A DNA stretch of 64,000 nt from Gracilariopsis chorda. Its lineage: Eukaryota; Rhodophyta; Florideophyceae; Gracilariales; Gracilariaceae. Shown one piece after another: positions 1-20,978 of this stretch. The number at the start of each line of letters is the position of its first letter. Position 1 is the stretch's first letter. A program made the position numbers and the translations under genes. The stretch lies in contig NBIV01000027.1 in NCBI GenBank assembly GCA_003194525.1, positions 1 to 64,000 on the forward strand, written 5' to 3'. The notes under the pieces are model-generated. The model worked only from the letters and a program-made list of their open reading frames with translations. It was not told the DNA's origin and did no database searches.

Positions 1-1113
1 CAGGCTATAAAGACTGCGAACCAACTCACTGCTATGCCTTCTGCGGAACGTGACGCCCCATCCTGACATTCTTTTCATTCCACAGCACACTCCAGTGACC
101 TCTGTGCCAAGCAAAACACAGCCGCAATACTTGCAGCTATGTATTTTCAATGTCCAGTCCGCGTACGGGCAGGAGGAGAGCGTGTGTGAGTGTTCGCCGC
201 ATCTTCCGCATCGCCTTTGACCTGCAGTGGGAAGCGTCTCAAACTCCGGCACGCTTGCACGGATGGCCGGATCATTCCTCGCCTGAGCTGCCACGGAATC
301 CCACGCATAGTACACGCGATAGAGTCCTCGATCAGGACGCCCAGCACAGTGCATGACCGTCATATCAAGCTGTTGCTGTGGCTGATGCTGCGGCTGGTGT
401 GAGGGAGCCGGTGTGATCTCATCCGCTTCCACCTCCATCGGAATGGACATCTGTTGTTCTTCCTGTTCAGCTTGTGGCAACGCAGGCTGCGGCGGCGGGT
501 GTGAGGGAGCCGGGGTGATCTCATCCTCTTCCACTTCCATCGGGACTGGCATCTGTTCTTCCTCTTGTTCAGCTTGTGGCAGAGCAGGCTGCTGTGATGG
601 CGGTGGCTGTGAGGGAGCAGGGATGATCTCATCCTCTTCCAATTCCATCGCAATAGGCATCTGTTCTGCAGGCATCGGTGGGAGAGGGGGAGGCATCGGA
701 GGCGGTGGAATGTGACTTGGAAGGCCTCTCACAAACTCCAGAAATCCAGGAATTGGGCACGATGTTGGTAGATCTGTGGCAGCGGACCCACTGGCTCCAG
801 CGGCGCTTGTGCTAACTGCTGCTGCAACCGAAGTAGGTGCAGGAGTAATTTCGTCTTCTTCAACCACTGGAACAATAGGTCCTTGAACGTGTGCTCCGCT
901 CTCATTTACTCCCAACTCATCTGGAGATGGAGGAGCTGGTTCTCTTCGGGGTCTTCCAGCTCCTGCCCGTGCTCCACCACTGCCGACGCGACGACCACCA
1001 GCGTTTTGCCTTGAACCGCCTGCGTTCAACCTGGCACCTCCAGAATTGTCTCTGGCACCTCCCGAGTTAGATCGGATGCCACCAGAGTTCAGACGTCGCC
1101 CTCCTCTCGTCAT
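1..1113 (-). CDS. Helitron RepHel N-terminal region, partial (truncated by window edge)
   Basis: The reading frame starts at the ATG complementary to 1111-1113 and stays open to base 1; I found no in-frame stop in the part I read codon by codon. The product begins with repeated S/NxGG-type units rich in Arg, Gly and Asn. It then has acidic-proline direct repeats (MEVEEDEI.PAPS type) and a CX2CX4HX4C zinc knuckle near the edge. It is the counterpart of residues 1-371 of the copy starting at 7768. The zinc-binding, low-complexity N-terminus is usual for Helitron transposases, but the catalytic Rep and helicase domains would lie left of the window. Confidence 0.75.
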   Translation of the reverse strand, partial: MTRGGRRLNSGGIRSNSGGARDNSGGARLNAGGSRQNAGGRRVGSGGARAGAGRPRREPAPPSPDELGVNESGAHVQGPIVPVVEEDEITPAPTSVAAAVSTSAAGASGSAATDLPTSCPIPGFLEFVRGLPSHIPPPPMPPPLPPMPAEQMPIAMELEEDEIIPAPSQPPPSQQPALPQAEQEEEQMPVPMEVEEDEITPAPSHPPPQPALPQAEQEEQQMSIPMEVEADEITPAPSHQPQHQPQQQLDMTVMHCAGRPDRGLYRVYYAWDSVAAQARNDPAIRASVPEFETLPTAGQRRCGRCGEHSHTLSSCPYADWTLKIHSCKYCGCVLLGTEVTGVCCGMKRMSGWGVTFRRRHSSELVRSLYSL

Positions 1114-1299
1114 TTCAATTTACCAAAGAAAAAAAAAAACAATTCTATGTTTTTAAACCGTTAAAAAATTTGCCAGAGTTCCAGAATAATTCCAATAAAA
1201 CACAAAGTTGAAAGTGAAAAAACTGGTTGCAGTTTGTTGCTTGCACCCACCGGGCCTAGTCGCATGCAGCAATTAAAAAAAAATTGCTGCAAGGCTTAT

Positions 1300-1660
1300 A
1301 TTTACCCGATGCAGTCGTGCGCAGCACAGGGACTCCGACACACTCCTGTTGGATTATGACGGGCGGAGTGTGCCCAGCCGGTTTTCAAGCCGTTTGATGT
1401 TTAACCCGCGTCCGGTTGTAAGGATTGGTCTGCCTTTACTCACACACACCGAAGTGTGCTTTCCGGCCCCAAGAGGTACGACACGGCGGCCGCCCCGGAC
1501 CCTGCACAGCAAGCTGGTATTAGGTCCGGTAAACCCTCAGACTTCCTGATCGCCGTCAAACGACCAGTATACCACAGAGGAGCACCTGACTTTTCCCAGA
1601 TCCGTGGTACTTAGTGGGTTACTCTTGTGGCGACCTGCACACGAGCTCGGCCTTGCCTAG
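1300..1660 (-). other. Conserved non-coding block in Helitron leader (copy 1)
   Basis: This stretch, and its counterpart at about 7965-8325, are nearly identical between the two autonomous copies, GC-rich and without a convincing ORF. On the minus strand positions 1458-1445 read CACAC-TTCG-GTGTG, a hairpin with a UUCG tetraloop. It may be a structured RNA or captured sequence; I do not recognise the family. Confidence 0.4.
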
Positions 1661-1836
1661 GTCCAGGCCAGCAAACAGTGCCCAAAGTAGCAAAAGATTA
1701 CGACACTGCGCTATTGGCCAAGACTGAATGGGATGGAAAATAGTGGTTAGGGTCAGCAAGCGAGATGCATTTGGCACTGCGCCAGTGCAGTATATACGTC
1801 TGTTGCAGGCAAGTCTGCAATGAAACTTCAGTATAC

Positions 1837-1910
1837 ACTGCACTGCGCAGTGCAATTTGCCACGTGTTGAAATGCGCTGCACTGGCGCAGTGCAATTTGC
1901 CACGTGTCGG
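1837..1910. repeat. 40-bp iteron-like direct repeats with palindromic core (copy 1)
   Basis: Two tandem units of about 40 bp, each carrying a CACTG.CGCAGTG palindrome followed by CAATTTGCCACGTGT. A reversed version of the core lies just upstream (GCACTGCGCCAGTGCAG near 1773). The first unit here lacks two bases relative to the other copy. Confidence 0.6.
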
Positions 1911-2311
1911 AATGAACAGGCGGGTTTTGCTGCTGAGTGGCTGGCACAACAATTTGATTGTATTGCAAGCCATTCAGCAGCCATTGCACAGTCAACTTGC
2001 AGCAGCAGCAGCAAATTAACTGAACGCTTTGCTGCTGCTGCTGCTGCTGAATTTTTTTAATGGTGGGAGGCGTTGCGCCAAATGGGCGATTTGCATGCGC
2101 GTAGAGGGCATACAGGGCGGTTTATTGGCGCACCGCCTCCTATCAATCAACAACACCCCCCTCATACATGTGTAAATCATTAAGAGTGGGGTGTTTGAGA
2201 CAAGAGGAAGCGGCCTTCGGCCGCGGGGGCGCTGCGCGCCGCAGTGGAGGGGTGTAAACAGCGGTGAGGAAAAAAGAGGGTGGAGAAAGCAAAAGCAGAA
2301 AAGCAAGTAGT

Positions 2312-5300
2312 TTAATTCAATGAAAAAAGAATGCAAGAGATATGATTACGGTTGTGGAGGGATGCAGAACTGAAAAACTTCAGGCAGCACTGGTTGGCGA
2401 TGGGAACAGGCATGGGATGAATTGTGTGCGCATTTTCGGGTGTAAGCAGCGGATCATGCAGGAGCAGCACATGGTCGTTCCTTCGAACGCGCGACAATGC
2501 GACATACAACTGACCTGCGCAGAAGAAGTTGGATCGTACATCCACAACCAAGCCATCCAAGGTTTTTCCCTGTCCTTTGTGAACTGTAGCTGCAAACGCA
2601 AGACGAATAGGGAACTGCCTTCGAATCATGCGAATGTCTGCGAAAGAAACTCGAAGTCGATACGATGCAGGAGCTGTCGTTCGAGCACCTGTCCGTTTCT
2701 CGTCGAATCGAGCCACCTGCATCGTAAAGTGATCTACACGCACGACTAGGAACAGCTTTCCGTTGAGCACAGCCGGATGCAACACGTTCCGAATGACCAT
2801 AACTGGCACACCAATCTTCAAATCCAAGTTATGAGGAGGTACACCAGTAGGTGCATTACTGATACGCAAACTCGGGAACAAAGGTATTGGTGACGTCGGG
2901 CTCTGAGTTTGGTACACGGTCAGGTTGTACCGTCGTAGCTGACGGAAGAGTGAAGCGTTCACCAGGAACAGATCTAGCGCTGCCGCATTGTGTTCATCGA
3001 CCAACTGATTTTGTGGAGGCAATGAGCATTTTGCTGAGATCCACATCCTCCTTGCGTCGTGTTGTGAGCCACTTCCACAGGAATTGGTAGGCGGTTTGCA
3101 TGCCACCGGTAGATCTGAGTGATAGCGGAGCGTTGTTGGATATTGTGTTTCGTGCAATGGAACGTAACAGCGACGCAAATGCAGGATCATCGGCTTGGCG
3201 TACTTGTTCCGTGAGGTACAGCACTTGAACCGAGCACAATATCCAAAGATCACTCTTCCACGGCAATTCGTTGAGAATGTTTGTGTCACTCGTCTCACAT
3301 TACCACTTGGCTCGGCCTCCATGTACACCTGCGGCACCACTGGAAGCAGCTGGGAGTAGTCGCCGGATAGATGATGGTCAAGCCCCCAAACGGAGGCGGG
3401 TTTTCCATTCCACTGCAGCGAGATCTTTGAGCAACGCATCCATGAGTTCGAAGAAGCTTTCGTGAGAGCATGGACGCCTCATCCAAGACGAGCAGTTGTA
3501 TTTCGCGTAGCAGTTCTGCACGTTGAGATCGGGGACCGTACTTTGACAAAGTGGCTGTAGTGTTGCTTGTGCTGTCCCTATCAGCTACACCCAGTCCGAG
3601 AAGGCTATGTAAAGTGCGGCCACCTTCGTACAACGAAGCTGCAATGCCTGTTGTAGCAGTCATTTCGGCGAGCATTCCTTCCGACTCAACGATATCACGA
3701 AGGAGGTTGAGCACGTATGTCTTTCCGGTTCCTGCGGATCCTTGCACAAAGAACACGTTTCCAGGAGTGCTTGTTCGCTCCTGCAGTGCCTGTCGTTGTT
3801 GCAATGCAGCAATGACGGTGTCAATGACTTGTCTTTGGCGAGGTTTTAAGGTGGCGTACCTTGACTGCAAAGTTGACGAATTTCGCACCACTCGTGCGTC
3901 TCGAGTTGTTGTAGCTCGATTCGCCTCAGTCAATGCTGTATGATCCTGCTGTAGGTGCTGGGAGAAGAAGCTGTGATCGCGAAGCAGTCGTCCTCCGTGC
4001 CGGTCTGAGATTTCCACCACACGTCGATACATTTTCTTGCTTTCGTTGCTGCTCATCTCCTGTATGTATGTCGCTACATAGTGCCTCCCAGTTTTCGACG
4101 GCCATTTTTTCTGGGTCTGCGCCTTGTTGGTATAGTGTAACAACCAGACGTCGTAGCTCTGAGGGCGTGCTGTATATCTGCACTGCTTCTTGGAATGCAA
4201 TATCAAACTCGGATCGGTCCGCGAGCAGTCCGCTTACAATCGCAGTTTCACGATACGTTCCATACTGCTGTCCGTTGAAAGTCCTTGCGTCTTCATAAGA
4301 GCTCGAGCCGTGATTCATGAGCAGCAAGCGCAGAGCAAAGAGCTCAATGGCCGACGGTGAAACACCTCTGATCCTTGCGACACACTGCTCGTCGTCCGTG
4401 CGCTCTACCACGTACATGGGCGGATCGCAGTCGTCTGTGGGCACCTGAGTGCTGTCTCCGTCGTATTGGTTAAGCACGCGGGCTGGAAGCGTGCGATACA
4501 ATCGCACTTTTTCAAAGTACGAAAGGTAGTCGAGGTTCGCGTATGCTTCGGGCCTTGCAAAGTATCTCTCCAGTGTAGACGGCTGTGATGCAGAAAAGAG
4601 CTGGTTTGGACCTCTCCGCAGAAATGTGCGCTCTCCTTCCAAGTGAATGGCCAGTCGCTCTACTTTTGGTACGATGTGAACATGTCGAAACTCGAAAAGT
4701 CTCCAAGCTGCATTGACGGCGCCCACCACACGCGCTCGCATGTATGCACGAATGTCGTTCTGCACCTGTGGCTCTTGTTGCTGCTCGTTGTGTGTGCCTG
4801 TCTCGTTAGCATCACTCACATTGAGCACCACCTCCTGAGCTTTGGGCTGCTTAAACGCGTACTTCATCAGATAAGCCACTGCGCCCCCTCCTTGCGCGCG
4901 TTCTACGTTGATATGAGAGCGGTACTTCTTGGTCAGTGTTGGGTTGTATGGCACAATCTTGAGGTCTTCTTGCCTTCTTCTGCGGTAAATCACGCGATTC
5001 GTGCCTTCTTCAATGTACGTCTCCGGCACAATCATATTGCTGTCGTATCCAAACTTGCACCGCCCAGCGCGATTCCGGCAATAGGTGGAGTGGCGGTGCC
5101 TGTGCATGGAACGAATGAGGGCACGCAACGCGTCGTCTTCGCCTGGAAGGGGAAGTTCTGCACGAATGAGCTCGTCGATCACATCAACGTCTTCAATCAC
5201 GCCTCCTTCGAGCCACACGAGCATGTGGTGATGAGGCACATTGCGCTCTTGAAACTCGAGCTTTGATGCAAGCCCCAGGCACTTCAATCCAAAGATCTGC

Positions 5301-7768
5301 TCCGAGTTCTTCTCCAAGTCCTTCATGAAGTCGTTTGCGTACTGGTTGTACACCCTTGCAATCAGATCAGGTCGGTCAAACGGTCGAGGGCGGTTACTTT
5401 GTGCCGTAAATGCGCCACGATTGGTGGTGTCCATCCCAAGACGCTGGATGTCCTCTCGCCAGATGTTCATGGTGATTGTAATGAACAGAGAAGGCGGTCC
5501 TCTCCGCGCCACGATCGCCTGTACATCCATGCGCTTGTTCTTCCAGTATGCTGCTGAGTTGACGGAGTCATCGGGCATAAAGATGCGTCCCATTAGCACG
5601 AACTGGGATTGTGGCACGTGACCGGTTTGCTGTTGTGCTTGCTGCATTTCTTGCTCTTGTACAATGCGTGCCCGTTGTTCTCTTTCGAGGAAACGCAGTC
5701 GCATGTCCTCAATGTTTGTGTGGGTGCGAAGCATCCACATCTGCATCAACGGTCCACTGTCCAGAAGGATGTTGTCTGAGTACAGTCGTCTCTTCGCGTT
5801 CTCAGCCCAGGTGAGCTTTCGGAGCTTCCACTCGTTGACGCTGAGACCTGAGATTTGCTGTGTTTAGTTCTTTGCCTCCAGAAACACGCCAATGTCAAAC
5901 GGTTCGTGCTGATCTCCGTACGGGTAGAGAAGAGGAAAAGTGCCTTTCTCTGCCATTTTGGATGCCGGTTTCAGAAGGCGGTACCGCACTTGCGCATTGT
6001 TTGCGGCATTCGCAGTCGCCCCATCTCCAGCATTAGCAGCACCAGCAGCCGTCACTACGGCGTGCTCTTCTGTTACGGTTCCTTCTACCAAGCGCGGTAC
6101 TTGAGACTCCACTCGGTACAGGCCAGTCGGATCCACGACGAGCGTTCTCATCATGGTTGGCCCCCCACCAGGAGCATCTTCAGGGAGAGGCCCAGCACCT
6201 ACGTGAGGAGCACTGACTGTGGCACTTCGGGTTCCTTCGTAACCACGTACGACTACTCCCTCTTCTGCTGCCTGCATGCTGATATCGACGGCGGTATCTG
6301 CATTTTGTTGTTGTTGTTGCGTGCTAAGCATGGATCGGTACCGCTCACGCACCACGTCTGGCTTGGGCTGGATCACATCGTACAACTTGGGCACGATGTC
6401 TCGTACGTTGATATCTTGAATGAACGCACGCAAATTGGCACGCGCATAGTGAGAGGGATCCAAGGAAGGTGGACCAGTACCCCACAGAAAGCTGTAGCGC
6501 GTGTTGTTCTGGTTCTGCGCGGGCAGAGCGAGAGCTGCGTTGCCTTCAAGTCTGAGAAAGGAGGGACCGCCTCCCGTCACATACGACATGTCCATGAGCG
6601 CTTGCGTCGTCGCGAAGAGCGTATTCAAGTTGAGAAAATGGCTGTGAAAGGCTCTCAGACTATAAAGACTGCGAACCAACTCGTTGTTATGCCTTCTGCG
6701 GAACGTGACGCCCCACCCTGACATTCTTTTCATTCCACAGCACACTCCATTGGTCTCTTTGCCAAGCAAAACGCATCCGCAGTACTTGCAGCTATGAATT
6801 CTCAATGTCCAGTCCCGGTACGGGCAGGAGGAGAGCGTGTGTGCGTGCTCGCCGCATCTTCCGCATCGCCTTTGACCTGCAGTGGGAAGCGTCTCAAACT
6901 CCGGCACGCTTGCACGGATGGCCGGATCATTCCTCGGCTGAGCTGCCACGGAATCCCACGCATAGTACACGCGATAGAGTCCTCGATCAGGACGCCCAGC
7001 ACAGTGCATGACCGTCGTATCAAGCTGTTGCTGTGGCTGATGCTGCGGCTGGTGTGAGGGAGCCGGTGTGATCTCATCCGCTTCCACTTCCATCGGAATG
7101 GACATCTGTTGTTCTTCCTGTTCCGCTTGTGGCAACGCAGGCTGCGGCGGCGGGTGTGAGGGAGCCGGGGTGATCTCATCCTCTTCCACTTCCATCGGGA
7201 CTGGCATCTGTTCTTCCTCTTGTTCAGCTTGTGGCAGAGCAGGCTGCTGTGATGGCGGTGGCTGTGAGGGAGCAGGGATGATCTCATCCTCTTCCACTTC
7301 CATCGCAACCGGCATCTGTTCTGCAGGCATCGGTGGGAGAGGGGGAGGCATCGGAGGCGGTGGAATGTGACTTGGAAGGCCTCTCACAAACTCCAGAAAT
7401 CCAGGAATTGGGCACGATGTTGGTAGATCTGTGGCAGCGGACCCACTGGCTCCAGCGGCGCTTGTGCTAACTGCTGCTGCAACCGAAGTAGGTGCAGGAG
7501 TAATTTCGTCTTCTTCAACCACTGGAACAATAGGTCCTTGAACGTGTGCTCCGCTCTCATTTACTCCCAACTCATCTGGAGATGGAGGAGCTGGTTCTCT
7601 TCGGGGTCTTCCAGCTCCTGCCCGTGCTCCACCACTGCCGACGCGACGACCACCAGCGTTTTGCCTTGAACCGCCTGCGTTCAACCTGGCACCTCCAGAA
7701 TTGTCTCTGGCACCTCCCGAGTTAGATCGGATGCCACCAGAGTTCAGACGTCGCCCTCCTCTCGTCAT
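2312..7768 (-). pseudogene. Helitron RepHel transposase, interrupted (Rep/HUH nuclease + PIF1-type helicase)
   Basis: Order on the minus strand: (1) 7768-5864, 634 aa, with an SGG-type Arg-rich start, three acidic-proline repeats, and a CX2CX4HX4C zinc knuckle near residue 300 plus further Cys pairs. (2) After one TAA at 5866-5864 the same frame continues without a break into the Helitron_like_N Rep domain (5749-3926), with an HHH..W HUH-like motif near 5235 and a YLMKY tyrosine motif near 4870. (3) A frameshift at about 4020-4080 leads into the PIF1 helicase N-terminus (4206-3295), with Walker A QGSAGTGKT and Walker B VLDEAS. (4) Several shifts at about 3360-3480 and 2990-3300 precede the C-terminal helicase motifs (KIGVPVMVIRN, ATVHKGQGKTLDG, QLYVALSRVRR), ending at 2312. 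The intact enzyme would nick, transfer and unwind DNA for rolling-circle transposition. This copy cannot make it as one protein. Confidence 0.88.
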
Positions 7769-7964
7769 TTCAATTTACCAAAGAAAAGAAAAAAACAATT
7801 CTATGTTTTTAAACCGTTAAAAAATTTGCCAGAGTTCCAGAATAATTCCCAATAAAACACAAAGTTGAAAGTGAAAAAACTGGTTGCAGTTTGTTCCGTT
7901 GCACCCACCGGGCCTAGTCGCATGCAGCAATTAAGAAAACAAATTGCTGCAAGGCTTATATTTA

Positions 7965-8325
7965 CCCGATGCAGTCGTGCGCAGCACAGGGACTCTCGAC
8001 ACACTCCTGTTGGATTATGACGGGCGGAGTGTGCCCAGCCGGTTTTCAAGCCGTTTGATGTTTAACCCGCGTCCGGTTGTAAGGATTGGTCTGCCTTTAC
8101 TCACACACCGAAGTGTGCTTTCCGGCCCCAAGAGGTACGACACGGCGGCCGCCCCGGACCCTGCACAGCAAGCTGGTATTAGGTCCGGTAAACCCTCAGA
8201 CTTCCTGATCGCCGTCAAACGACCAGTATACCACAGAGGAGCACCTGACTTTTCCCAGATCCGTAATACTTAGTGGGTTACTCTTGTGGCGACCTGCACA
8301 CGAGCTCGGCCTTGCCTAGGTCCCA
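7965..8325 (-). other. Conserved non-coding block in Helitron leader (copy 2)
   Basis: Second copy of the leader block. The UUCG-capped 5-bp hairpin is preserved at 8117-8104 despite a nearby indel relative to copy 1 (CA repeat length). It lies upstream of the RepHel ATG at 7768. It is absent from the two short units, so it is not needed for end recognition. Confidence 0.4.
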
Positions 8326-8496
8326 GGCCAGCAAACAGTGCCCAAAGTAGCAAAAGGTTACGACACTGCGCTATTGGCCAAGCCTGAATGGGATGCAAAA
8401 TAGTGGTTAGGGTCAGCAAGCGAGATGCATTTGGCACTGCGCCAGTGCAGTATATACGTCTGTTGCAGGCAAGTCTGCAATGAAACTTCAGTATAC

Positions 8497-8572
8497 GCTG
8501 CACTGGCGCAGTTCAATTTGCCACGTGTTGGAATGCGCTGCACTGGCGCAGTGCAATTTGCCACGTGTCGGA
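8497..8572. repeat. 40-bp iteron-like direct repeats with palindromic core (copy 2)
   Basis: CACTGGCGCA recurs at 8501 and 8541, giving a 40-bp period. Each unit contains the 17-bp palindrome TGCACTGGCGCAGTGCA or a one-base variant, then CAATTTGCCACGTGT. They lie within the leader of the autonomous Helitron, between its 5' end and the ORF. Confidence 0.6.
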
Positions 8573-8863
8573 ATGAACAGGCGGGGTTTTGCTGCTGAGT
8601 GGCTGGCACAACAATTTGATTGTATTGCAAGCCATTCAGCAGCCATTGCACAGTCAACTTGCAGCAGCAACAGCAAATTAACTGAACGCTTTGCTGCTGC
8701 TGCTGCTGCTGAATTTTTTAAATGGTAGGGAGGCGTTGCGCCAAATGGCAGTTTTGCATGCGCGTAGAGGGGCATACAGAGCGGTTAATTGGCGCACCGC
8801 CTCCTATCAATCAACAACACCCCCCTCATACATGTGTAAATCATTAAGAGTGGGGTGTTGAGA

Positions 8864-9296
8864 CAAGTGGAAACGGCCTTCGGCCATGGGCGGCGCTGCG
8901 CGCCGCGTTGGTTTTGTAGCTTTGTGTATTTCGTGGCGTTCGGAGGCTCTCCGAGCACTTTGCTCGCTTGCGCTCGCAATAGCGCTCGTAGAACCACGGG
9001 GCGCCGAGGCGCCTAGGTGTCTAAATTGACTGCAGTGCCAGCCAATGATGAGAAAGCGCGACACGTTGCTTTGTGTAACTGGGTGGCACTGCAGTCATTA
9101 TGGGAGTGCCAGCCAGTAAGCAGGAAGCTTTGCTGCTGCTGCTGCTGCTGAATTTTTTAAATGGTAGGGAGGCGTTGCTCCAAATGGCAGTTTTGGATGG
9201 GCAAACGGGGGCGTGGAAGAGGATTTTATGGCGCAACGCCTCCATTCAATCAAGAACACCCCCCTCATACGCGTATAAATACTTATGATGGAGAGA
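8864..9296 (-). mobile_element. Non-autonomous Helitron unit (433 bp)
   Basis: Minus-strand 5' end TCTCTCCATCATAAG at 9296, 3' end CCACTTG at 8864. It shares the first ~170 bp (including a CAG-repeat tract near 9128-9150) with the autonomous unit. It also shares the 3' terminal ~45 bp with its two hairpins. The middle ~220 bp is unrelated to RepHel and includes a perfect 13-bp inverted repeat (9028-9040 with 9084-9096). There is no coding capacity of note. Its 5' 35 bp differ from the other units. Confidence 0.85.
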
Positions 9297-9735
9297 CAAG
9301 TGGAAACGGCCTTCGGCCGTGGGCGGCGCTGCGCGCCGCGTTGGTTTTGTAGCTTTGTGTATTTCGTGGCGTTCGGAGGCTCTCCGAGCACTTTGCTCGC
9401 TTGCGCTCGCAATAGCGCTCGTAGAACCACGGGGCGCCGCGGCGCCTAGGTGTCTAAATTGACTGCAGTGCCAGCCAATGATGAGAAAGCGCGACACGTT
9501 GCTTTGTGTAACTGGGTGGCACTGCAGTCATTATGGGAGTGCCAGCCAGTAAGCAGGAAGCTTTGCTGCTGCTGCTGCTGCTGAATTTTTTAAATGGCAG
9601 GGAGGCGTTGCGCCAAATGGCAGTTTTGCATGCTCGTAGAGGGGCATACAGAGCGGTTTATTGGCGCACCGCCTCCCATCAATCAACAACACCCCCCTCA
9701 TACATGTGTAAATCATTAAGAGTGGGGTGTTGAGA
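9297..9735 (-). mobile_element. Non-autonomous Helitron unit (439 bp), right end of array
   Basis: Minus-strand 5' end TCTCAACACCCCACTC at 9735, 3' end CCACTTG at 9297. It is near-identical to the 433-bp unit except at its first bases. Host sequence begins at 9736. Reading the minus strand, the base before the element is A, matching the usual A|TC insertion context of Helitrons. Confidence 0.85.
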
Positions 9736-10566
9736 TAGTAGGGGTATAAGGATCACATCTTACTGTCGTACCTGGGGGTATAAGCTTTTTCTCATATGTA
9801 GCAAGCAAAACATTCTGAGCCCACTTATTGCACAGAACTTAGAAGGCTGAGGAACATGTGGTACAAAGAGAGCTTGCAAGACTGCCTCAGAAAGCACGCA
9901 ATAAAAGGAGATGAAGCGCACGGAGTGGATTGGGCCACAGAAGAACGGTAATCTCGATTGCAGTGGGCTAATCTTGGGTTTGGCGTGAACATGATGCCGA
10001 GAAGTCGGCTCATTATTCGTTGTCACGATCTTGACGTGGATCGTCGGTTTTGATTCTTCGTTTTAAATCTATATCTGTTCAGTTTGTAGAACATCTAGCA
10101 TAAACGTAAACAGGAGTTCGAATCCAATGTATTCCAAGAGGTGGGTGCAAAGCCACGATGAATGCACTCTGCCTTTGGACAGCAAGAGAAAAGTCATAAA
10201 ACCAGAGTGGCACTGACCGTGAATGGTTTTAGGGGTGGGGACGGGAGAAACTGCTTTCGTTTTTTGGCTTGTCTTCGAAAGCGGAGTAGCTCTCCACCGG
10301 GAGGATACCTGAAGCGGTATCGATCTTGGCACACTACATGGCTGAGAATGCACTGACGCGTCTTGGCCACGGCATGTGCGTCTGTTAGCACAGATTAGTT
10401 TCGCACCATCGAGCAGGATTAATGGATTTAGAGTGCCCGTAGTTCACCTCTCCTCGAAAGCTAGGCAGAAGCCAAGCCTGGTGCGACTCGGCGGGTCAAA
10501 TCGTAATAAGCACGGAATGTAAGAAAGTTGCAGACTTCGAATGACAAGCTCCCCAAACCGAAGTAA
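9736..10566. other. Intergenic, host flank of Helitron array
   Basis: No ORF with recognisable content. This is the unique sequence right of the transposon array and the 3' side of the HOOK-domain gene. A TTCGAATCC string near 10118 resembles a T-loop, but no cloverleaf could be built. Confidence 0.5.
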
Positions 10567-19628: not shown

Positions 19629-20318
19629 TGCTCCGCGGTTGGATGGCGGGGTTTGAAAGCGCGCGGCGTCAAGCACGGCAGGAAGCGATGAGCAAAGGCA
19701 GCGCAAGAAGAGAGCTATGCAGCAAGTTGAACGCTCGCAAGGGAAGGCGTCGCAGAGACGTCGCGCGTTGCTCGCGACCATTAAGAACAGGAACGCCGGA
19801 GAAGCGGCAACGCGCAAAGTGCCGTTGAGTTGCGCTAAATGCGCCACTCGCAGCTGTGTGGGAATGCTGTAAACCCGCACTGTAAGGAGCGCCGCCCCCT
19901 CCGTGGCACTCGTCCACGTGGCGCACAGTTACTGTACACAGCTGTATTGTCAGAATTTCTCGCTGGGTGGTCGGTGCCGCCTTCCAAGTTAGTTGCCGTC
20001 GTGGAGCGACTGACACACGTGCACACGTGCGGTTGAGCTCGAGCGCGTCGGAGATCTGTTTCGCACGCTACGGCTGTGGATGCACGGCGCGTGCTCTGCC
20101 GTTTGCGCTTCATCCAACCACACGCCTTCTGCACCCGTCAAACTCTACCGCCCATCTGTTGCGTGCAACTCCTATCCGTATTGCTCCCCCTCCATCGTAC
20201 CCCACAGCACCCCCCACCTCCATCGTACCCCACAACACCCCACACACGTCCACCCTTCTCCTTCGTCAACTCCCTGCACCCACGCACCCACGCACCCACC
20301 CCCCCCCCCGGTCCCGCC
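19629..20318. other. petC upstream region with C-rich leader
   Basis: About 20,165-20,318 is a C/A-rich pyrimidine tract on the sense strand, ending in an 11-base C run just before the start codon context CCGCCATGG. It probably contains the promoter and 5' UTR of petC. No gene seen. Confidence 0.55.
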
Positions 20319-20978
20319 ATGGCCTTCGTCAGCAGCATCCCCGTCGCAGACCGCCGCGCCTTTGCCGGCGCCGCCCTCACCTCCGCCGCGCCCCGCCGCG
20401 CCCCACGCGCTCACCCCCGTCTGCGCATGGCCGCCGGCGCCAGCGCCGACGAATTCGTCCCCGACATGGCCAAGCGCAACACAATGAATCTCCTGCTTGC
20501 CGGAAGCACAGGAGCCGTCGCGCTCAGCGTTCTCTACCCCTTCTCCTACTTTTTCGTGCCCAAGTCAAGCGGCAACGCAGGAGCCGGCACAGTCGCAAAG
20601 GACGCCCTGGGCAACAACATCAAGAAGAAGGAATACCTCGACTCCCATTTGGCCGGATCCAGGGAGCTCGTCCAGGGACTTCGCGGCGACGCCACCTACC
20701 TCATCGTCACTGACGACAAGTCCGATTTAGAGTATTTCGCCCTCAACGCCGTGTGCACTCATCTCGGTTGCGTCGTCCCGTGGAACAAGGCCGAAAACAA
20801 GTTCAAGTGCCCCTGCCACGGTTCGCAGTATTCCCCAACCGGTGCAGTCGTGCGTGGGCCGGCTCCTCTCCCGCTCGCATTGGAGCACGTAGAGTTTGAC
20901 GAAGCCGACAACGTCCTCCTCAAGAGCTGGAAGGAAGAAGACTTCCGCACAGGAGAGGCGCCGTGGTGGAACTTCTAA
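20319..20978 (+). CDS. petC: Cytochrome b6f complex Rieske iron-sulfur protein, plastid-targeted
   Basis: 219 aa from ATG 20319 (context CCGCCATGG). The frame is open upstream to 20076 but that part translates the C-rich leader. Residues 1 to ~40 form a basic, acid-poor transit peptide with an early Phe. A membrane anchor lies at about 52-75 ([18 protein letters not shown]). The C-terminal Rieske fold carries both [2Fe-2S] motifs, CTHLGC and CPCHGSQY, and the G-x-V-x-x-GPAPLPL loop. It ends in WWNF, typical of plastid and cyanobacterial PetC. It transfers electrons from plastoquinol to cytochrome f on the lumenal side of the thylakoid. The lack of a signal peptide supports a primary plastid. 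Confidence 0.97.

Follow-up and report, generated by a model that had tools for sequence, protein, structure and literature searches.

How do transposons come to lie end to end at a single locus? The first 64 kb of contig C27 of the red alga Gracilariopsis chorda (GenBank NBIV01000027.1; this whole 64,000-nucleotide stretch is referred to here as the window) begin with an array of Helitrons, in which short and long units follow one another head to tail on the minus strand. Given that head-to-tail Helitrons have so far been argued from a few cases, either as rolling-circle multimers or as the outcome of repeated insertion, we questioned which of these processes built the array. Our analysis suggests that the window array is probably a Helitron stack, formed mostly by successive single-element insertions at the 5′ border of a resident element. 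It also demonstrates that tandem arrangement is the usual state of the recognisable intact 3′ ends in this genome and not a curiosity of one locus. C-numbers below designate contigs of the same genome, and a suffix gives the unit number.

The first-pass annotation had described four minus-strand units that abut exactly, two of them non-autonomous elements of about 435 bp and two of them autonomous copies. We observed that the 3′ CTTG of one unit touches the 5′ TCTC of the next at all three junctions (9297/9296, 8864/8863 and 2201/2200), with zero bases between. The mixture of short and long units was likewise borne out, with units of 439, 433 and 6,663 bp plus a partial long copy. The long copies are indeed of the autonomous type, but they are not intact: unit 3, autonomous in kind, has its coding region spread over four frames as assembled, and unit 4 is cut off by the start of the contig, since window base 1 is the first base of C27 and only the 5′ third of this long copy (2200-1) is present. 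The outer 5′ border of the array reads CTACTA|TCTCAACACC, which places the host boundary at 9735/9736. We named two 5′ types, A (TCTCAACACCCC) and B (TCTCTCC), represented by units 1 and 2, respectively. These two units have about 300 bp of 3′ sequence in common at 99% identity, and the first 193 bp (5′) of unit 1 and of the long unit are 94% alike. In addition, unit 1 is 99.5% identical to a unit of an array in C1.

We then searched the genome (91.3 Mb in 1,081 contigs) for the element ends, as the first-pass annotation had proposed, and found 578 occurrences of the exact 3′ end pattern, 450 of them directly followed by TCTC. The 26-base junction pattern, consisting of the 3′ end plus TCTC, accounted for 450 exact occurrences and was never found when read backwards, which excludes chance. 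Allowing up to two mismatches in the junction pattern yielded 935 occurrences, and the backward control gave 0 matches in all three pattern searches of the genome. With roughly four-fifths of the intact 3′ ends in tandem, the mechanism of stacking becomes a countable question.

To this end we parsed 42 arrays or parts of arrays, the window included, comprising 203 units, most of them with both ends, and 161 junctions between complete units. The arrays came from listings of junctions and best matches, largely the first contigs among the matches listed, and do not form a random sample. C699 was excluded from the counts because its units stand in the same order as those of C38, probably as a second copy of one locus. 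Since loci were picked for having junctions, their exact 3′ ends are partly a product of that choice, while the bases on the opposite side were free to vary. Inner junctions read exactly CTTG|TCTC in 145 of 161 cases; among the 16 inexact ones, 13 have a changed or lost base in one end, those in C38 and C855 have one extra base, and the one in C4 has ATA between the units. At the outer 5′ borders A stood before TCTC in 26 of 27 cases, and at the outer 3′ borders T followed CTTG in 15 of 15. At the single 5′ exception, in C289, 26 bp of a partial 5′ end come first, and these follow an A. In C7 and C38 the outer A closes a partial 5′ end of 8 bp, which likewise follows an A, and the outer 3′ flank of C19 (TCACAACACC) could be a decayed further unit instead of host DNA.

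A host A together with the first T of a resident element (A|TCTC) would supply the A^T target used by Helitrons. Were a newcomer to insert there, its 3′ CTTG would meet the resident 5′ TCTC directly, with zero host bases between, and A|TCTC would be re-created at the newcomer's own 5′ end. The landing site would in this way be renewed at the 5′ edge only, so that the stack would extend 5′-ward and keep its founder at the 3′ end. An A^T target composed of host A and resident T would account together for A at the outer 5′ border, G|T at the inner junctions, the lack of host bases and T at the outer 3′ border. The 5′ border is also where the transposase would be expected to nick when starting transposition, and resident ends that are bound or nicked could explain frequent landing. 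For the window array we infer this insertion chemistry, the recruitment by the resident end and the corresponding order of events.

Insertion at the 5′ border predicts that the oldest unit of a stack lies at its 3′ end. We assessed age on short units of 420-480 bp only. The alignment comprised 169 of these from 36 arrays; 30 of the arrays contributed two or more, for a total of 163. Arrays added later count in the border and class tallies but not in the age, neighbour or half-donor tests. Pooled over the 30 arrays and 163 units, divergence climbs 3′-ward (p 0.0001 to 0.0004). Having seen that two arrays dominated the pooled data, we chose a test that weights every array equally; because it returns to data already inspected, its p values call for corresponding caution. 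With equal weights, all 30 arrays gave a tau of 0.207 for singletons (p 0.0497) and 0.317 for nearest-neighbour distance (p 0.0097). For the 22 arrays whose 5′ border could be seen, mean tau was 0.318 for singletons (p 0.0145; 15 up, 5 down) and 0.355 for nearest-neighbour distance (p 0.0142; 16 up, 6 down), and the equal-weight test of these bordered arrays without C7, C38 and the diverged unit C4_1 returned p values of 0.0165 and 0.0357. By thirds from 5′ to 3′, mean nearest-neighbour distance was 1.66, 1.86 and 4.09% in C7 and 1.44, 2.55 and 4.86% in C38; in both, divergence climbs from the 5′ third to the 3′ third and therefore does not rise towards both edges. The median nearest-neighbour distance also fits the model, at 1.86% for outermost 5′ units, 2.28% inside and 3.24% at the 3′ end. 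Together, these findings support, but do not prove, a 3′-ward rise of divergence in 5′-bordered arrays, and they make growth towards the 5′ side likely, though not proven.

We also evaluated how units arrive. Units of different class, as defined by 5′ type and size, are joined at 97 of the 161 junctions, and class order is random: arrays with three or more units have 86 mixed junctions, compared to 87.1 +/- 4.9 after shuffling. Junctions between different classes cannot arise from a multimer of a single circle. Among short units of the same class, median identity was 0.963 for adjacent pairs (n=44), 0.954 for non-adjacent pairs (n=273) and 0.951 for pairs from other arrays (n=6,703), with C289 excluded from the two within-array medians. 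A first set of 94 short units from 12 arrays gave 93.7% within versus 94.8% between arrays for class A, and 95.3% versus 94.9% for class B. Near-identical short units in different arrays had near-identical neighbours in 0 of 58 comparisons, which suggests that units move one at a time. These comparisons, made on short units, accordingly give little support to the transfer of multi-unit blocks from one locus to another. Half-units shared a donor in 23 of 33 testable pairs from within one unit (8.6 expected), compared to 2 of 26 (6.2 expected) when a 3′ half was paired with the 5′ half of the following unit, and 5 of 24 (4.1 expected) for the opposite half pairing that served as control. Units therefore arrive complete from one end to the other, as expected of delivery by a transposase and not of homologous circle integration.

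Several observations pull in the other direction. The pooled age trend rests on C7 and C38, without which p becomes 0.60 for singletons and 0.23 for nearest neighbours. The eight arrays without a seen 5′ border exhibited no clear trend, either in singletons (tau -0.095, p 0.68; 1 up, 4 down) or in nearest-neighbour distance (0.212, p 0.20; 5 up, 3 down), and, divided into thirds, C275 and C24 give flat or irregular profiles. Singleton counts do not fit the model either, the outermost 5′ units having 2.70 on average (n=23), inner units 0.98 (n=90) and units at the 3′ end 3.11 (n=9). A placement of the older length classes on the 3′ side of the younger (p 0.006) depends on C7 and C38 (p 0.41 without them), and we did not rely on this measure. 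Two long units stand in the same order in C27 and in C1, with 98.9% and 98.3% identity between counterparts, which may reflect block movement long ago or an assembly that ran through a repeat of 6.6 kb. Near-identical repeats are also present in C289, C135, C24, C163 and C1, and adjacent short pairs of the same class were at least 99% identical in 7 of 44 cases versus 7 of 273 for non-adjacent pairs (C289 excluded).

This enrichment, together with the local repeats, calls for a second process. C135 has the order (BA)(BA), with repeats 100% identical for both units and host DNA on both sides; C24_2 equals C24_3, C1_1 and C1_2 are 99.94% identical, and C7 repeats a long-plus-short pair (99.2% and 99.8%). 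C289 holds thirteen units of 432-433 bp (C289:79166-84793), of which the eleven from unit 4 to unit 14 alternate between two types and are near-identical at even lags. Local duplication of one or two units, by rolling-circle replication or recombination, adds to insertion and accounts for a minority of junctions, perhaps through rolling-circle replication of a unit or block. C135, C289, C24 and C1 look as expected had rolling-circle multimers of one circular element, or products of read-through past a missed 3′ terminator, been inserted as ready-made arrays, and Helraiser circles are described as carrying the same joined-end junction, with read-through also occurring (PMC4778049). As the principal source of the arrays this is nevertheless unlikely, because a one-element multimer cannot yield the different-class junctions and ready-made arrays would share neighbours that different arrays of short units do not. 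Moreover, the adjacent long units of C45 (96.8 and 98.4%) are no closer to each other than to C1_5 (96.5-98.6%). Neighbours that are near-identical siblings of one class, as in a concatemer, were found locally in C289, C135, C24 and C1, but not overall. Of the two routes that the first-pass annotation had left side by side, repeated single-unit insertion is thus favoured for most junctions in the sampled arrays, and rolling-circle read-through is less likely to be the main one; the evidence for the 5′ end as landing place is weaker.

Homologous recombination of joined-end circles into a resident unit, one unit per event, would likewise leave perfect and identical junctions, and chimeric units with class-B 5′ ends and the long-unit 3′ type do exist. 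We regard this route as improbable, given that it predicts donors shared across junctions, where we observed fewer than expected and found them within units instead, and predicts no 5′-to-3′ order. Equally improbable is satellite-like growth by unequal crossing-over or slippage, or the joining of separate loci by the assembler, even though there are local near-identical repeats and C27 starts inside a 6.6-kb repeat. Class order is random and arrays display no general homogenisation, contrary to satellite growth. Seven arrays of 2-4 short units (C135, C49, C342, C83, C29, C8 and C45b) span less than 2 kb and are bordered at both ends within one contig, and are therefore hard to create by mis-assembly. 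Least probable of all is insertion at the 3′ border of the resident (a noncanonical G^T target) with stacks extending 3′-ward, which yields the same junctions and was put forward as one of two alternatives for a pair of maize Helitrons (PMC2267711) but predicts the youngest unit at the 3′ end, where 5′-bordered arrays diverge more, and a G^T target that the outer borders do not display.

Successive insertion at the 5′ border can be taken one step further. The 5′ end of a resident element, perhaps bound or nicked by transposase, may be the preferred landing site of this family, with its loci being one-ended, time-ordered stacks that have the newest unit 5′ and hold short and long units in random order; we consider the case for this broader proposal evenly balanced. 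If stacks grow at one end, bursts of transposition would be recorded in the order of units, and the border between host and element would offer a defined target at which a eukaryotic HUH transposase could be tested. If the resident 5′ end is the preferred site, the genome would hold many readable records of insertion order.

The identification of the units as Helitrons was upheld by their protein, termini and target. The long unit matches the Pfam domains Helitron_like_N (E 2.1e-27) and PIF1 (E 9.4e-26), and its Rep part, which contains the HHH motif, matches the solved bat Helraiser transposase (7lcc, E 1.2e-34), with tyrosines that align with Helraiser Tyr727 and Tyr731. In Helraiser, end joining is reported to fail in the Y727F/Y731F double mutant (PMC5876387). 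Among 12 long units examined, C1_6 (1,807 amino acids) and C38_2 (1,809 amino acids) have one open frame. All four window units begin with the 5′ TC of Helitrons, as TCTC, and the three complete ones have 3′ hairpins, the last ending 9-11 nucleotides from the unit end (Table 1). The outer border bases agree with insertion into A^T, and the lack of a target duplication was judged from these same bases. The 3′ end is CTTG and not the strict CTRR, so that by this one feature the element departs from the textbook canonical form and counts as a Helitron with a variant terminus; some Helraiser derivatives and maize Helitrons are also reported to end in CTTG (PMC4778049).

Table 1. Features of the Helitron array at the start of the window
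Feature	Coordinates	Strand	Description
Unit 1	9297..9735	-	Non-autonomous, class A (5′ TCTCAACACCCC), 439 bp; outermost 5′ unit, preceded by host A
Unit 2	8864..9296	-	Non-autonomous, class B (5′ TCTCTCCATCATAAG), 433 bp
Unit 3	2201..8863	-	Long RepHel-encoding Helitron, 6,663 bp; both termini present, coding frame interrupted
Unit 4	1..2200	-	5′ part of a further long copy (5′ TCTCAAACACCCC); ends at contig start
Host A	9736..9736	-	Next to the outer 5′ T, forming A^T; putative landing place of the next unit in the proposed model
Open frame, 636 amino acids	5867..7774	-	N-terminal portion of the long-unit protein; no Pfam match
Open frame, 645 amino acids	3929..5863	-	Rep/HUH domain (Helitron_like_N); resembles Helraiser 7lcc residues 429-944
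Open frame, 312 amino acids	3298..4233	-	PIF1-like helicase domain
Open frame, 388 amino acids	2315..3478	-	Pif1 2B domain
Two adjacent 3′ hairpins, unit 1	9306..9339	-	End 9 nucleotides before unit end; -16.2 kcal/mol, z -2.55
Two 3′ hairpins, unit 2	8875..8906	-	End 11 nucleotides before unit end; -13.3 kcal/mol, z -1.52
Two 3′ hairpins, unit 3	2210..2240	-	End 9 nucleotides before unit end; -12.9 kcal/mol, z -1.67

Tandem Helitrons were already known, as the first-pass annotation had stated. Xiong et al. (2016) reportedly described arrays of truncated Helitrons in plant centromeres. Head-to-tail Helitrons have been reported in bat, maize, rice, Drosophila, plant centromeres and fungi (PMC2267711, PMC5148889, PMC10095026). 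The closest precedent is the maize pair of Du et al. 2008 (PMC2267711), two different Helitrons joined at a G/T junction, for which canonical insertion at host A plus resident 5′ T is given as one of two orders and the choice is left open; maize thus offers one pair of open order, compared to 450 exact junctions and an order signal favouring the 5′ side here. Perfect head-to-tail junctions were also seen in Myotis lucifugus (Pritham and Feschotte, via PMC2267711), where the units were taken as tandem repeats since no host A lay between them, although insertion at the 5′ border predicts no such A. The Helitron arrays of plant centromeres resemble ours in having many tandem units of a rolling-circle family, but are built of truncated elements (PMC5148889, PMC10095026), whereas the units here are mostly two-ended and the window array lies beside long host frames. 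In Metarhizium acridum, one case of three tandem copies is reported, in a paper whose elements are mostly of the Helitron2 type (PMC5148889).

Helraiser, a bat Helitron that was reconstructed (PMC4778049, PMC5876387; 7lcc), has the same Rep plus helicase type, two tyrosines, 3′ hairpin, A^T target and joined-end circles. Its usual 3′ end is CTAG, although some insertions from constructs lacking the hairpin or the 3′ end ended in CTTG, as here (PMC4778049), and stacking on resident copies is not described in the available text of PMC4778049 and PMC5876387. The active wheat Xuan-Feng elements likewise form circles and insert at AT dinucleotides, yet genomic tandem copies of Xuan1 were tested for and, unlike here, not found, according to the available text (PMC13286980). 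In Gracilariopsis lemaneiformis, Helitrons are reported to make up 1.71% of the genome, and the accessible portion of that report does not mention arrays (PMC5970526). Our full-text literature search, whose partial coverage makes it weak evidence of absence, returned no genome with mostly stacked copies and no age order along stacks. Tandem Helitrons and the 5′-border option are therefore already published, while the scale and the order evidence seem new.

Closer inspection of the sampled arrays revealed further unit forms. Partial 5′ ends stand directly before complete units at C7:299321-299328 (8 bp), C38:389814-389821 (8 bp), C38:397354-397392 (39 bp), C289:78701-78726 (26 bp), C134a:28078-28103 (26 bp), C855:2578-2602 (25 bp) and C7:269977-270327 (351 bp). 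They give the impression of a transfer that broke off and began anew, or of units whose remainder was lost; in the case of the 351-bp piece, no remainder was seen immediately after the unit that follows. Seven units of intermediate size, 1.8-1.9 kb (C1_1, C1_2, C7_6, C7_10, C7_14, C24_1 and C289_15), have the long-unit 3′ end and internal deletions, and five of them have B-type 5′ ends, indicating that 5′ ends have been exchanged between classes. An extreme internal deletion is seen at C52:92828-92963, a 136-bp unit inside an array that has both element ends. At C4:280897-280900, a strongly diverged unit is separated by ATA from the next; no other of the 161 junctions has more than a single extra base. 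At C56:330685-332422 two oppositely oriented arrays meet, and the plus-strand array starts, after A, within the 5′ end region of a minus-strand unit.

The window array adjoins a stretch rich in long host open frames. One of these (20037-20978, plus strand) contains the motifs CTHLGC...CPCHGS and is a candidate for a Rieske iron-sulphur protein of photosynthesis. Elsewhere in the genome, phycobilisome-linker matches numbered 7 on 7 contigs, which makes a red alga likely, as the first-pass annotation had supposed, and the ranking of LR3 matches for one of these linkers points to a multicellular one. One linker protein, L063, had as its first match CpcN of 8imn, a multi-repeat linker (E 3.3e-169, in five stretches), and as its second LR3 of 5y6p (residues 21-347 of 351, E 2e-139), followed by LR3 of 6kgx (1.1e-85); we presume that 5y6p derives from the red alga Griffithsia and 6kgx from Porphyridium.

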